In this document: positions 12,014 to 40,712 of the stretch, piece by piece
Layout: each line of letters starts with the position of its first letter
Position numbering within the stretch: the first letter of the stretch is position 1
The notes under the pieces: model-generated
The model's database searches: none
Told to the model about the DNA's origin: nothing
Seen by the model: the letters and a program-made list of their open reading frames with translations, nothing else
Source of the DNA: Candidatus Zhuqueibacterota bacterium
GTDB taxonomy: Bacteria > Zhuqueibacterota > Zhuqueibacteria > Thermofontimicrobiales > Thermofontimicrobiaceae
Reading direction: 5' to 3'
DNA length: 40,723 nucleotides
NCBI GenBank assembly: GCA_016783825.1
Contig: JADHVV010000014.1
Coordinates: 1 to 40,723 of the forward strand
Made by a program: the position numbers and the translations under genes

Positions 12014-12083
12014 CCAAAAAAATGACAAAATAATTAGCGACAAAATAATTATTTTGTCAGTAATTATTTTGTCATTTTTTTGG
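12014..12083. repeat. 70-bp nested perfect palindrome between recJ and ilvE
   Basis: Two perfect 23-bp arms at 12014-12036 and 12061-12083 enclose a separate perfect 20-bp palindrome (12039-12058), with only GC and AG as spacers. The core GACAAAATAATTA occurs four times, twice per strand. The outer arms end in A7/T7, so on either strand the hairpin is followed or preceded by a T run. It could terminate recJ or act as a multi-site operator for ilvE. Confidence 0.85.
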
Positions 12084-12156: not shown

Positions 12157-13854
12157 TCATCTTAAATCCTTAATCCTTAACTGTAATGACGTTCGTCCCA
12201 GGTATGTATTTTCTTCTATAATATATGCCATATCCAGGTTGGGCGCTCCCGGGTCGATTCGGTAAATTAACTCGCCAAGATTAAATCCAATAGCATCAAA
12301 AAAAATTCCATCCTGGCGGACTTTGAATTTTAAATGGTTTCTTCCCACGATCGATGGCGTTCCTATCACCTGCAAATTGGTTGACTGAAATACCGGGCGC
12401 ATATTTTGAGGTCCAAAAGGGGCAAATAATTTCAGTAATTGTACCAGCCTTGGTGTTATTTCACTGAACCGGATTTCACTGTCAATTTTAAGTTTTGGGA
12501 TAAGAAGTTCTTCGGTTAATTCTTTTTTTGCTACTTCATTAAAGCTGTAGCGGAATTCTTCAATTTTATCTTTTTTAATCGTAAGTCCGGCGGCATACTT
12601 ATGCCCGCCAAATGCAACCAACAAATCTTCACATTGTTTAATAGCGGTATAAATATCAAACCCTGCAATGCTCCGAGCTGATCCTTTGCCGACGTCCGTA
12701 TCAACAGAGATCATAACAGTGGGACGATAATATTTTTCAACAACCCTAGAGGCAACAATCCCGATAACACCCGGATGCCAGCCTTCTTTAGCTAACACTA
12801 AACCAAAATTAGAAGACAAATCATAACTGTCCTCAACGATTCCTCTTGCCTCTTTAAAAGTTCCCTCATCAATACTTTTTCGCGTTCGATTCTCGTTTTC
12901 AAGAAGGTTGGCTATTTCCCATGCTTCATCCCAATCCTGTGTTGTCAACAATTTTACTGCCTTTTCTGCATCTCCCATCCTGCCAATGGCGTTTATTCGG
13001 GGCGCCAGCACAAAAACGATTTGCCCGGTACCAATTGTTTTGTCAGTCATGGCAGATACTTTCAGCAACGCTTTCAAGCCGGATTTTTTTGAGAGATTAA
13101 TCTGCTTTAATCCTTCTTTTACGAAGATCCTGTTTTCATCAATTAGCGGTACAATATCTGCCGTGCTGCCAATGGCAACCAGGTCCAGGTATTCATTAAT
13201 TGTTTCGTCATCTAATCCCAATGATTTAACCAAAGCCTGTCCGAGTTTAAACGCTACGCCCACACCTGCTAACTCCGGGTAAGGATAATTGGAATCTTTG
13301 CATTTCGGATTCAAAATAGCACAAGCACCTGGTAATTCCGGTCCTTCTTCATGGTGATCACTGACAATGAAATCTATCCCAATTGAACGAGCGTATTCTA
13401 CTTCCTGAATCGCAGTAATACCACAGTCAACAGATATTATTAATTTGACATCATTCTTCTTTGCTTCGTCGATGCCCGATTTTGCAATTCCATAGCCTTC
13501 CCGGATTCGATGGGGAATATAAAAAGAAACATCGGCTTCAAGTTTTTTCAATAATAAATAAAGAAGAGAAACCGATGTAATACCATCAACATCATAATCG
13601 CCATAAATTAATATTTTTTCATTGTTATTTATGGCAGTTTTTATTCGCTCAACAGCATTTTTCATGTCCTTTAAAATGAATGGATCGTATAGATTTTCCA
13701 CCTGTCCTTTGAAAAAAAGTTTCGCTTTATCAAACGTATCGATGCCGCGATTAATAAGGATGCTGGAAATAATGGTAGGGACATTTAATCTTTTTGCATA
13801 ATTCTTTTTTATTTCCGGATCGATCTCATCTTGTGGAATCCATTTTAAATTCAT
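12157..13854 (-). CDS. recJ: Single-stranded-DNA-specific exonuclease RecJ
   Basis: This 565-residue DHH-family 5'-3' exonuclease acts in recombination and mismatch/base-excision repair. The N-terminal catalytic domain has DYDVDGITS (Asp86, Asp88, Asp90) and SDHHEEGPELPGACAILNPK (Asp166, His167, His168), the metal ligands of the DHH family. The DHHA1 domain shows KEGWHPGVIGIVASRVVEKYYRPTV and the nucleotide-binding AFGGHKYAAGLTI. A C-terminal OB-like domain follows (FQSTNLQVIGTPSIVGRNHLKFKV). Its length and full motif set indicate an intact gene. RNase P RNA lies immediately upstream on the same strand. Confidence 0.95.
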   Translation of the reverse strand: MNLKWIPQDEIDPEIKKNYAKRLNVPTIISSILINRGIDTFDKAKLFFKGQVENLYDPFILKDMKNAVERIKTAINNNEKILIYGDYDVDGITSVSLLYLLLKKLEADVSFYIPHRIREGYGIAKSGIDEAKKNDVKLIISVDCGITAIQEVEYARSIGIDFIVSDHHEEGPELPGACAILNPKCKDSNYPYPELAGVGVAFKLGQALVKSLGLDDETINEYLDLVAIGSTADIVPLIDENRIFVKEGLKQINLSKKSGLKALLKVSAMTDKTIGTGQIVFVLAPRINAIGRMGDAEKAVKLLTTQDWDEAWEIANLLENENRTRKSIDEGTFKEARGIVEDSYDLSSNFGLVLAKEGWHPGVIGIVASRVVEKYYRPTVMISVDTDVGKGSARSIAGFDIYTAIKQCEDLLVAFGGHKYAAGLTIKKDKIEEFRYSFNEVAKKELTEELLIPKLKIDSEIRFSEITPRLVQLLKLFAPFGPQNMRPVFQSTNLQVIGTPSIVGRNHLKFKVRQDGIFFDAIGFNLGELIYRIDPGAPNLDMAYIIEENTYLGRTSLQLRIKDLR

Positions 13855-13880: not shown

Positions 13881-14258
13881 TCATCAATCTAAAGCAAGCC
13901 GTAAGCCGAATCCTGTCGAGGATGATCATTTATCTGGGATTCACTTCGCAGCGAACCTCAAGCAACCTACCCGAGAATCAAACGAAGCGGGCAGCTTCTC
14001 TTCTCCTATTTGGTCTTGCTCCGAACGGGGTTTACCATGCTTACGCTGTTACCAGCGCAACGGTGGGCTCTTACCCCACCTTTTCACCCTTACCCCGTCC
14101 CGACACTTCGTGTCGGGACGGGACGGTATATTTTCTGTGGCACTTTCCGGGGGTTCACACCCCCCTCATGTTATGAGGCGTCCTGCCCTGTGGAGTTCGG
14201 ACTTTCCTTCCCGACACGAAGTGTCGGGACGATCATCTGTCTTACTTTAGATTGATGA
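13881..14258 (-). ncRNA. rnpB: RNase P RNA, bacterial type A
   Basis: This is the catalytic RNA that cleaves tRNA 5' leaders. Read on the minus strand it contains the conserved core in order: GGAAAGTCCGAACTCCACAG, then GGTAAGGGTGAAAAGGTG, GGTAAGAGCCCACCG, GGTAACAGCG, GGTAAACCCCG, GGAGCAAGACCAAATAGGAG, GGGTAGGTTGCTTGAGG and GACAGGATTCGGCTTACGG. P1 is a perfect 14-bp pairing of 14245-14258 with 13881-13894, which sets the ends; a T6 run follows on the 3' side. The helix in the P3 position (about 14209-14230) and that in the P12 position (about 14096-14119) share the same stem, GTCCCGACAC and its complement, in opposite orientations. It probably belongs to the same transcript as the zinc-ribbon gene 17 bp upstream. 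Confidence 0.96.
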
Positions 14259-14274: not shown

Positions 14275-15000
14275 TTACGTTAAAGCCGGCTGCGCTTCCA
14301 ATGTTTCCCGCGGTACTAAAATCCGCCCACATGCTTCACAGAGAATGATGCGATTTTTCATTCGAACTTCCACCGCAGTTTGAGCCGGAATTGTTGCAAA
14401 ACATTCATCGCATGTATAATTTGTAACTTCAGATAGCGCGATACCATTTGTTCCATTGCGAATTCGATTATAATTATTCAATAATCTTTTTTCAATTTGC
14501 TCCGTAACTAATTCCCGTTCTTTTGTAAGCCTTAACTCTTCAGATTCTGTTTGTGAAAGTTTTTCCTTTAATTCTAACTGCTTTTGGGAAAACTCTTCTT
14601 CTAACTCGGTCACCTGTTTCTCTAATTCCCCCACAGTTTCTCTATTTTCTTTTACCAGGTGGATCAAATCCGCTTTCTTTTTTTCGTTCTCTTCAATTCT
14701 ATTCTCAATTGTTTCTATCTCAATTGTAATTGCGTCGTATTCTTTATTTGTTTTTACGGAATAACTTTGCTCTTGGTATTTCATAAGCTTTTCATAAAGT
14801 TCATCGATTTCGTTTTCATTGGCGCGCCCGGTTTTTTTTGCTTCTTCCAATTCGGATTTGCTGTTTGATAATCTATTTGTGCAAGAAACGAGTCTGCCTT
14901 CCAATTGTTGAACTATCTCAGGCAGATCACCTTTTGTGATTTCTAAGGCTATCAATTGTTTATCAATTCGTTGCAGACTTATTAATTTAGAAAGATCCAT
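14275..15000 (-). CDS. Coiled-coil C4 zinc-ribbon protein (COG1579 family)
   Basis: The ATG at 15000 (MDLSKLISLQRIDKQL) has AAGGAGG 10 nt upstream and gives 241 residues, typical for the family. Residues about 10-180 form a long charged antiparallel coiled coil, rich in Glu/Lys/Leu. The C-terminal ribbon uses YTCDECFATIPAQ and ILCEACGRILVP as two CxxC knuckles. The family's role is unsettled; nucleic-acid binding has been proposed. Genes of this family often lie beside rnpB, as here, where it ends 17 bp before the RNase P RNA, suggesting cotranscription and perhaps an RNA-linked function. The protein is cytoplasmic, with no signal peptide. Confidence 0.85.
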   Translation of the reverse strand: MDLSKLISLQRIDKQLIALEITKGDLPEIVQQLEGRLVSCTNRLSNSKSELEEAKKTGRANENEIDELYEKLMKYQEQSYSVKTNKEYDAITIEIETIENRIEENEKKKADLIHLVKENRETVGELEKQVTELEEEFSQKQLELKEKLSQTESEELRLTKERELVTEQIEKRLLNNYNRIRNGTNGIALSEVTNYTCDECFATIPAQTAVEVRMKNRIILCEACGRILVPRETLEAQPALT

Positions 15001-15049
15001 TTTGTTTGTTGCCTCCTTAATATCAAAATCCCAGGCTAATTTATTGTTT

Positions 15050-15247
15050 AAACAAAAAAAGTGTACCAATTAGAGAAGGTACACTTTTAAATTAAAATTC
15101 TGTTGATTGCTGTAATCTGGAATGTCTCAGACCACCACGTTTGGACATTCCTTTGTTCTGTTTGCTGCTTATTACAAATTGCTTTTATTTCAAAGTTCAG
15201 TTTCATAATTATTATATTTATTGGCACCTGTTTGTTTAAAAAATTGA
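15050..15247 (-). ncRNA. Candidate small RNA or attenuated leader
   Basis: A good promoter (15282-15254) and a strong intrinsic terminator (15088-15057 followed by T7) bracket about 195 nt on the minus strand. Inside is a hairpin with 8-bp arms GGAATGTC/GACATTCC (15119-15151) and a flanking pair TGTAAT/ATTACA. A 39-codon reading frame (15206-15087) has no ribosome site. It could be a free-standing sRNA or a leader controlling read-through into the zinc-ribbon gene and rnpB, which start 54 bp past the terminator. I do not recognise it as tmRNA, 6S or SRP RNA. Confidence 0.45.
15057..15088 (-). terminator. Intrinsic terminator upstream of the zinc-ribbon gene
   Basis: Perfect 11-bp arms AAAAGTGTACC (15057-15067) and GGTACACTTTT (15078-15088) have a 10-nt loop. 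On the minus strand a T7 run and GTTT follow. It ends the candidate small RNA upstream and lies in the 5' leader of the zinc-ribbon gene. Confidence 0.75.
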
Positions 15248-39493: not shown

Positions 39494-39543
39494 AAAATTT
39501 TCTTTACATATACTAATCACAAGGTGATTTCAATTATAATTCA

Positions 39544-39602
39544 TTTCGGAGTACGGCGCCTTTATGCGCCGCCACAATCCATAAAGGGATTGTATTCCGA
39601 AA
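39544..39602. repeat. Cloverleaf-like element with two inner hairpins
   Basis: The outer arms TTTCGGAGTAC/GTATTCCGAAA (39544-39554, 39592-39602, one mismatch) enclose hairpin GGCGC/GCGCC and hairpin ACAATCC/GGGATTGT. Each inner hairpin has a short CTTTAT- or ATAAA-type loop. The three-way junction shape resembles a tRNA-like fold but has no tRNA features. Confidence 0.7.
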
Positions 39603-40596: not shown

Positions 40597-40712
40597 CTAA
40601 AGTGCAGGCGAAGGCTGAGGCAAAGGCGAAGGAAAAAATCTTAAACCTTTAATCTTCTACCTTGCTCCGCCTTAGCCTTCGCCTCAGCCTTTTCGTTGTA
40701 ATAGTAATTGAT
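40597..40712. repeat. Dispersed palindromic repeat with RAGGCN hexamer arms, copy 2
   Basis: This is an inverted copy of the 2628-2732 element. It runs from CTAAAGTGCAGG through GCGAAGGCTGAGGCAAAGG and the complementary GCCTTAGCCTTCGCCTCAGCC to CGTTGTAATAGTAATTGAT. The arms are a little longer than in copy 1. Its left boundary coincides with the break in the symporter reading frame. Confidence 0.85.

Follow-up and report, generated by a model that had tools for sequence, protein, structure and literature searches.

A shared palindrome in helices P3 and P12 of a bacterial RNase P RNA, and related hairpin tips elsewhere in the genome

The RNase P RNA gene and its helices P3 and P12

The stretch of DNA analysed here (the window, 40,723 nucleotides) carries a complete rnpB gene on its minus strand, flanked by a recJ-like gene (12157-13854) and by a gene (14275-15069) for a 264-aa protein with a C-terminal CxxC zinc-ribbon-like motif; both neighbours were named from their translations. 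The rnpB gene aligns end to end with the RF00010 covariance model, scoring 311 bits against a gathering score of 100, and is the single match in the assembly (4.5 Mb, 83% complete, 260 contigs). Because this is the sole copy in the assembly, the RNA is likely to be catalytically active. Between the recJ-like gene and an aminotransferase gene, the window also holds a long AT-rich inverted repeat (12014-12083), which is built of TGACAAAATAATTA units and has 35-nt arms, 94% complementary, with no spacer. The features of rnpB discussed below are:

13887..14248, minus strand: rnpB, class A RNase P RNA, complete (RF00010, 311 bits, model positions 1-367)
14209..14229, minus strand: P3 helix, a 21-nt palindrome, TCCCGACAC-TTC-GTGTCGGGA, with a 9-bp stem (sequence and Rfam alignment)
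14098..14118, minus strand: P12 apex, the same palindrome in opposite orientation, TCCCGACAC-GAA-GTGTCGGGA (sequence and Rfam alignment)
14094..14122, minus strand: whole P12 stem, 13 bp, comprising a retained lower part (TCCCG/CGGGG side) and the palindrome (inverted repeat I9; lower stem like that of relatives G001 and G003)

The 21-mers in P3 and P12 are exact reverse complements of one another over 21 nt, with a TTC loop in P3 and a GAA loop in P12, and dinucleotide-shuffled windows, used as a chance control, gave no matches at up to 3 mismatches. A sequence-only reading had proposed that the same hairpin occupies both helices in opposite orientation, and this is what we find, in the form of a perfect 21-nt palindrome. 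The same reading gave the shared stem as 10 bp; the stem is indeed shared, but its length is 9 bp in P3, where the flanking G lies opposite an A, and 13 bp in P12, where the palindrome forms the apex of CCCGTCCCGACAC/GTGTCGGGACGGG.

To place this identity in context, we extracted both helices from 67 rnpB genes, mostly from the same phylum with a few from outside. The longest run shared by P3 and P12 within one genome is 20 nt in the window, followed by 9 nt (G004) and 8 nt (G046), and the longest among 4422 between-genome pairs is 15 nt. Resemblance between the two helices is not in itself unusual: in relatives they often share 5-6 nt, since both tend to start with TCC and end with GGA, and GC-rich stems of this kind could in principle have arisen independently in both. 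Yet here a 9-bp stem and reverse-complement loops agree, and the 20-nt run stands against at most 15 nt between genomes, so we regard convergence as highly implausible. Across the 67 genes, the mean shared run is 5.3 nt within genomes and 4.8 nt between them (permutation p = 0.002 for the mean, with the window included, and 0.26 for runs of at least 7 nt). This general excess is slight and relies on the window itself, and we base no strong claim on it.

Perfect inverted repeats are a known cause of assembly and amplification chimeras, and this draft genome, 83% complete, is split into 260 contigs, so a palindrome-driven metagenome chimera might have written the hairpin into both places. However, both helices lie in the correct order and orientation with their unique flanks intact, P12 has an extra lower stem that P3 lacks, and each site shows a clean replacement of one hairpin by another. 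We therefore consider an artefact of this kind very unlikely.

Comparison with relatives indicates how each helix changed. The P3 sequence GTGCGCCTGAGGCGCAT is identical in two relatives from the same family, G001 and G005, and a genome from another family of the order (G011) differs from it by one loop base. The P3 of the window is unrelated to GTGCGCCTGAGGCGCAT. Because these relatives share an unlike P3 while the rest of rnpB, within the family, is 86-88% identical, everything between GATCG and AGGAAAG, the entire P3 helix, appears to have been replaced abruptly in the window. P12 is new only at its top: its lower stem, TCCCG/CGGGG, is like that of relatives G001 and G003. The gradual, independent change in P3 and P12 that the sequence-only reading had set against its proposal was seen in most relatives, but not in the window genome. 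A search for closer relatives in GTDB r220 through RecJ returned only two distant loci.

Related palindromes across the genome

The sequence-only reading had looked to further genomic copies of CCCGACACTTCGTGTCGGG as a sign of a dispersed repeat. No such copy was found in the 83%-complete assembly, where both occurrences of the exact 21-mer are in rnpB. The nearest sequence, TCCCGACATTTCATGTCGGGA, has 2 mismatches that form one compensatory pair, and the TTC loop is unchanged. It lies on contig C34 (locus L003, 1470-1660), in a degenerate tRNA-Val copy just upstream of an intact tRNA-Val gene, and exactly replaces the anticodon arm: the degenerate copy reads gagta-TCCCGACATTTCATGTCGGGA-gtgt, and the intact gene gagta-CCTGCCTTACAAGCAGG-gtgt. 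More distant relatives of the rnpB palindrome are TCCCGACAGAATGTCGGGA, TCCCGACATGTCGGGA, TCCCGACAAGTCGGGA (two copies) and TCCCGACCTGTCGGGA (two copies).

Because no exact copy of the hairpin exists outside rnpB, copying between P3 and P12 is a live alternative to invasion from elsewhere. One helix, probably P12, may have evolved the hairpin itself or picked it up, and a replication-fork template switch then copied it in inverted form into the other helix, about 110 bp away, in which case the wider population of palindromes described below would be irrelevant to the duplication. The confinement of the exact 21-mer to rnpB fits this explanation, as does the inverted orientation, which suits template switching between nearby hairpins, and relatives G001 and G003 already have TCCCG at the foot of P12. 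On the other hand, another contig carries a near-identical palindrome within a tRNA-like hairpin, and related palindromes move between contexts in the window genome. On balance we judge intragenic copying by itself to be unlikely, though it deserves serious weight.

Palindromes of the same general form, TCC...GGA, are abundant. A census based on pattern searches and about 0.55 Mb of contigs gave 35 occurrences of TCCCGA...TCGGGA in the window genome, against 3 for the reversed control pattern, a count that takes in an AT-rich-loop family in AATTCCAAA-type repeats and one 16S rRNA helix. For TCCGCC...GGCGGA the count was 42, against 0 for the control. Related palindromes also exceed the control in two relatives from the same family, G004 (53 versus 0) and G003 (19 versus 1). 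The units are 14-21 nt long and symmetrical, have unlike flanks, and occur within many different repeat families, often as the apex of a longer hairpin. One dispersed repeat, AAGGCTGAG-GCA-AAGGCGAAG, is found at 2646-2721 and 40618-40690 of the window and at many other loci of the same genome; other copies read GCGAAGGCA, and at L211 a TCCGCCAGCTGGCGGA palindrome lies in the middle.

The 23S rRNA of the window genome (L217) also has TCCGCC...GGCGGA hairpins, in helices H25 and H98. Because H98 of G001 has a similar hairpin, vertical inheritance is likelier here than invasion, and both hairpins were left out of the count. A similar caution applies to P3 and P12 of the relatives, whose hairpins recur exactly in their own genomes: that of P3 in G003, TCCGCCAGCCGGCGGA, has 1 other copy, that of P12 in G003, TCCCGCTAAAGCGGGA, has 3, and that of P12 in G004, TCCGCCAGTCGGCGGA, is found at at least 6 other places. 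As only one or a few changes separate these stems from forms inherited vertically, and the 23S TCCGCC hairpins look vertical, such recurrences are only suggestive of an origin in the pool, and they may partly reflect vertical stems with chance loop matches.

Bacterial genomes are known to harbour REP elements, dispersed palindromes that are tagged with GTAG or CGTC and associated with RAYT transposases (PMC3733652, PMC2817692). REPs are, like the palindromes described here, short, dispersed, mostly intergenic and present in dozens of copies. The TCC...GGA units differ in having no one-sided tetranucleotide tag (neither GTAG nor CGTC) and no RAYT linkage, and in occurring within the gene of an essential RNA. 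Short palindromes and single-stranded DNA hairpins suit Y1 tyrosine transposases in general, and four Y1 matches are present in the window genome, which could favour a RAYT having moved the rnpB hairpins as REP elements. Yet the palindromes beside three of the Y1 genes differ in sequence and none was found beside the fourth, the 3 kb examined at these four loci holds no TCC...GGA palindromes, and the symmetrical rnpB unit has no one-sided tag. A REP/RAYT origin is therefore improbable, and we rejected it. A viral carrier was also set aside, as the one IMG/VR contig that fits the loose pattern does so within an ordinary phage gene.

Two further kinds of palindrome were noted in this genome. REP-like palindromes with a CGGAGT head (cggagtaCGGCGCCTTTATGCGCCG and others), at 39540-39590 of the window and at L128 1201-1950, resemble the palindromes that surround a Y1 transposase gene of this genome. 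At L126 1280-2370, an IS200-like transposase gene is bracketed by the palindromes CCACGAGAT-AA-ATCTCGTGG, CCACGCCAT-TT-ATGGCGTGG and GGGGTTAAAACCCC, whose stems vary between copies.

Exchange of hairpin tips and the origin of the rnpB copies

We compared sites at which exact 8-nt flanks on each side of a palindrome also enclose a different sequence, against displaced control positions; a version allowing one mismatch per flank was too loose, and the exact-flank version was used instead. The sequence pools were partly chosen for holding such palindromes, so the rates should not be taken as estimates for the whole genome. In the window genome, exact-flank alternatives were present at 11 of 37 sites, against 1-6 of about 43 displaced controls; 9 of these are credible and the other two trivial or doubtful, among them the rnpB site, which matches itself. 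In G004 the figures were 8 of 24 sites against 1-2 of 28 controls, and in G003 there was no excess (2 of 8 sites against 0-3 of 11-13 controls).

Among the individual exchanges, GCTTCGC lies between GGTATTCC and TTCAACCG five times, and the same flanks hold TCCGCCAGCTGGCGGA once and TCCGCCAACTGGCGGA once. Similarly, GCGAAGC lies between TGCGAGGA and GACGAAGC three times, with TCCGCCAGCTGGCGGA taking its place once. The flanks AGGAAATA and TGAATAAT enclose CAGACTG and also TCCCGACATGTCGGGA and TCCCGACAAGTCGGGA, which are of the TCCCGAC type, and in G004 GCGCAGC alternates with TCCGCCAACTGGCGGA between CGAACGGA and GGAGTGAG. A 7-nt mini-hairpin is thus exchanged for a 14-16-nt palindrome, or the reverse, with the flanks intact and without target duplication. 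Since TCCCGAC tips behave like TCCGCC tips, the rnpB palindrome can be tied to the same system.

The explanation we favour, with some reserve, is that a genome-wide population of short perfect palindromes (14-21 nt, TCC...GGA) spreads by replacing the apical hairpins of stem-loops, and that a single member of it gave rise to both identical hairpins, in P3 and in P12. In P12 the palindrome would have replaced the tip only, leaving the lower TCCCG/CGGGG stem, and in P3 the entire helix between GATCG and AGGAAAG. A palindromic unit could insert either way round, which would explain the opposite loops of the two helices. More broadly, and still more tentatively, 7-nt mini-hairpins and 14-21-nt palindromes may swap freely among the apices of unrelated hairpins in this bacterial family, in intergenic repeats and essential RNAs alike, so that P3 and P12 have been homogenised by this exchange rather than evolving separately. 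Against an origin in the pool stand the restriction of the exact 21-mer to rnpB, the lack of an exact-flank excess in G003, the 23S TCCGCC hairpins, which look vertical, and the failure to find a transposase with matching ends at the Y1 loci and in about 12% of the genome.

Hairpins from this pool could have reached rnpB in two ways. First, both could derive from a common donor. Second, a single copy could have arrived and then been copied within the gene. That no third exact copy was found tips the balance slightly towards the latter. The sequence-only reading had proposed either invasion of both positions or conversion of one helix into the other: the genome-wide pool with its alternating tips speaks for invasion, but the missing third copy keeps copying between P3 and P12 in play. 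Candidate mechanisms are transposition that replaces stem-loops and, on single-stranded DNA, a template switch from one hairpin to another; a switch of this kind between extruded hairpins would also explain inverted copying from P12 into P3.

Known systems and consequences for the RNA

In heterocystous cyanobacteria, STRR repeats, which are short and occur genome-wide, enlarge a peripheral region of RNase P RNA, but they are tandem heptamers, whereas here a palindrome lies in two separate helices. Rickettsia palindromic elements are likewise dispersed palindromes found inside genes, mainly protein genes, though their units are far longer than the 14-21 nt seen here.

A parallel to the tip exchange is the inverted-repeat-replacing transposition of IS1272 (IS1182 family), in which the target stem-loop is removed and replaced, targets are alike in shape and not in sequence, and no target duplication is made; the terminal repeat is modelled as 16 bp (PMC5678879). 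The intergenic repeats described here likewise show stem-loop replacement without target duplication (GCGAAGC, GCTTCGC, GCGCAGC and CAGACTG versus TCC...GGA), and the replacement in rnpB is suggested by comparison with relatives. In contrast, IS1272 moves a whole insertion sequence; here only 14-21-nt palindromes were seen, and a search of other loci and about 12% of the genome turned up no insertion sequence with TCC...GGA ends and no transposase with matching terminal repeats.

In sponge and fungal mitochondria, repetitive hairpin-forming or double hairpin elements occupy intergenic regions and those sites in structural RNA genes where length varies (PMC2800124). In being small and mobile-like and in this choice of sites, they resemble the palindromes described here. 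The published descriptions concern insertions and rRNA, whereas the present case involves an exact tip-for-tip exchange, RNase P RNA and a bacterium. An open-access literature search found no description of these palindrome sequences or of palindromes in both P3 and P12.

In phylogenetic comparisons, the peripheral helices of RNase P RNA are normally treated as characters that change slowly. Two such helices overwritten by a seemingly mobile palindrome offer a concrete route for jumps in the length and sequence of structured-RNA helices. The findings lend partial support to a reading in which short, mobile-like palindromes of a bacterium have overwritten peripheral helices of an essential RNA, as part of a wider exchange of hairpin tips. 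Furthermore, the exact-flank exchanges between 7-nt mini-hairpins and 16-nt palindromes amount to sequenced before-and-after states, which make the mechanism testable.

The RNA with its replaced P3 and P12 probably still works, because its core positions match the model, and P3 and P12 are peripheral helices of variable length. Since the two copies are reverse complements, P3 and P12 could also pair with each other, and a possible consequence is a folding trap for the ribozyme, whose survival would then be informative about folding order. In a pseudoknot-free model, which leaves out the native P4 and P6, the fold with P3 paired to P12 over 21 bp has an energy of -149.4 kcal/mol, against -145.2 kcal/mol for the native pair of hairpins, and is thus 4.2 kcal/mol more stable. 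P3 folds before P12 is transcribed.
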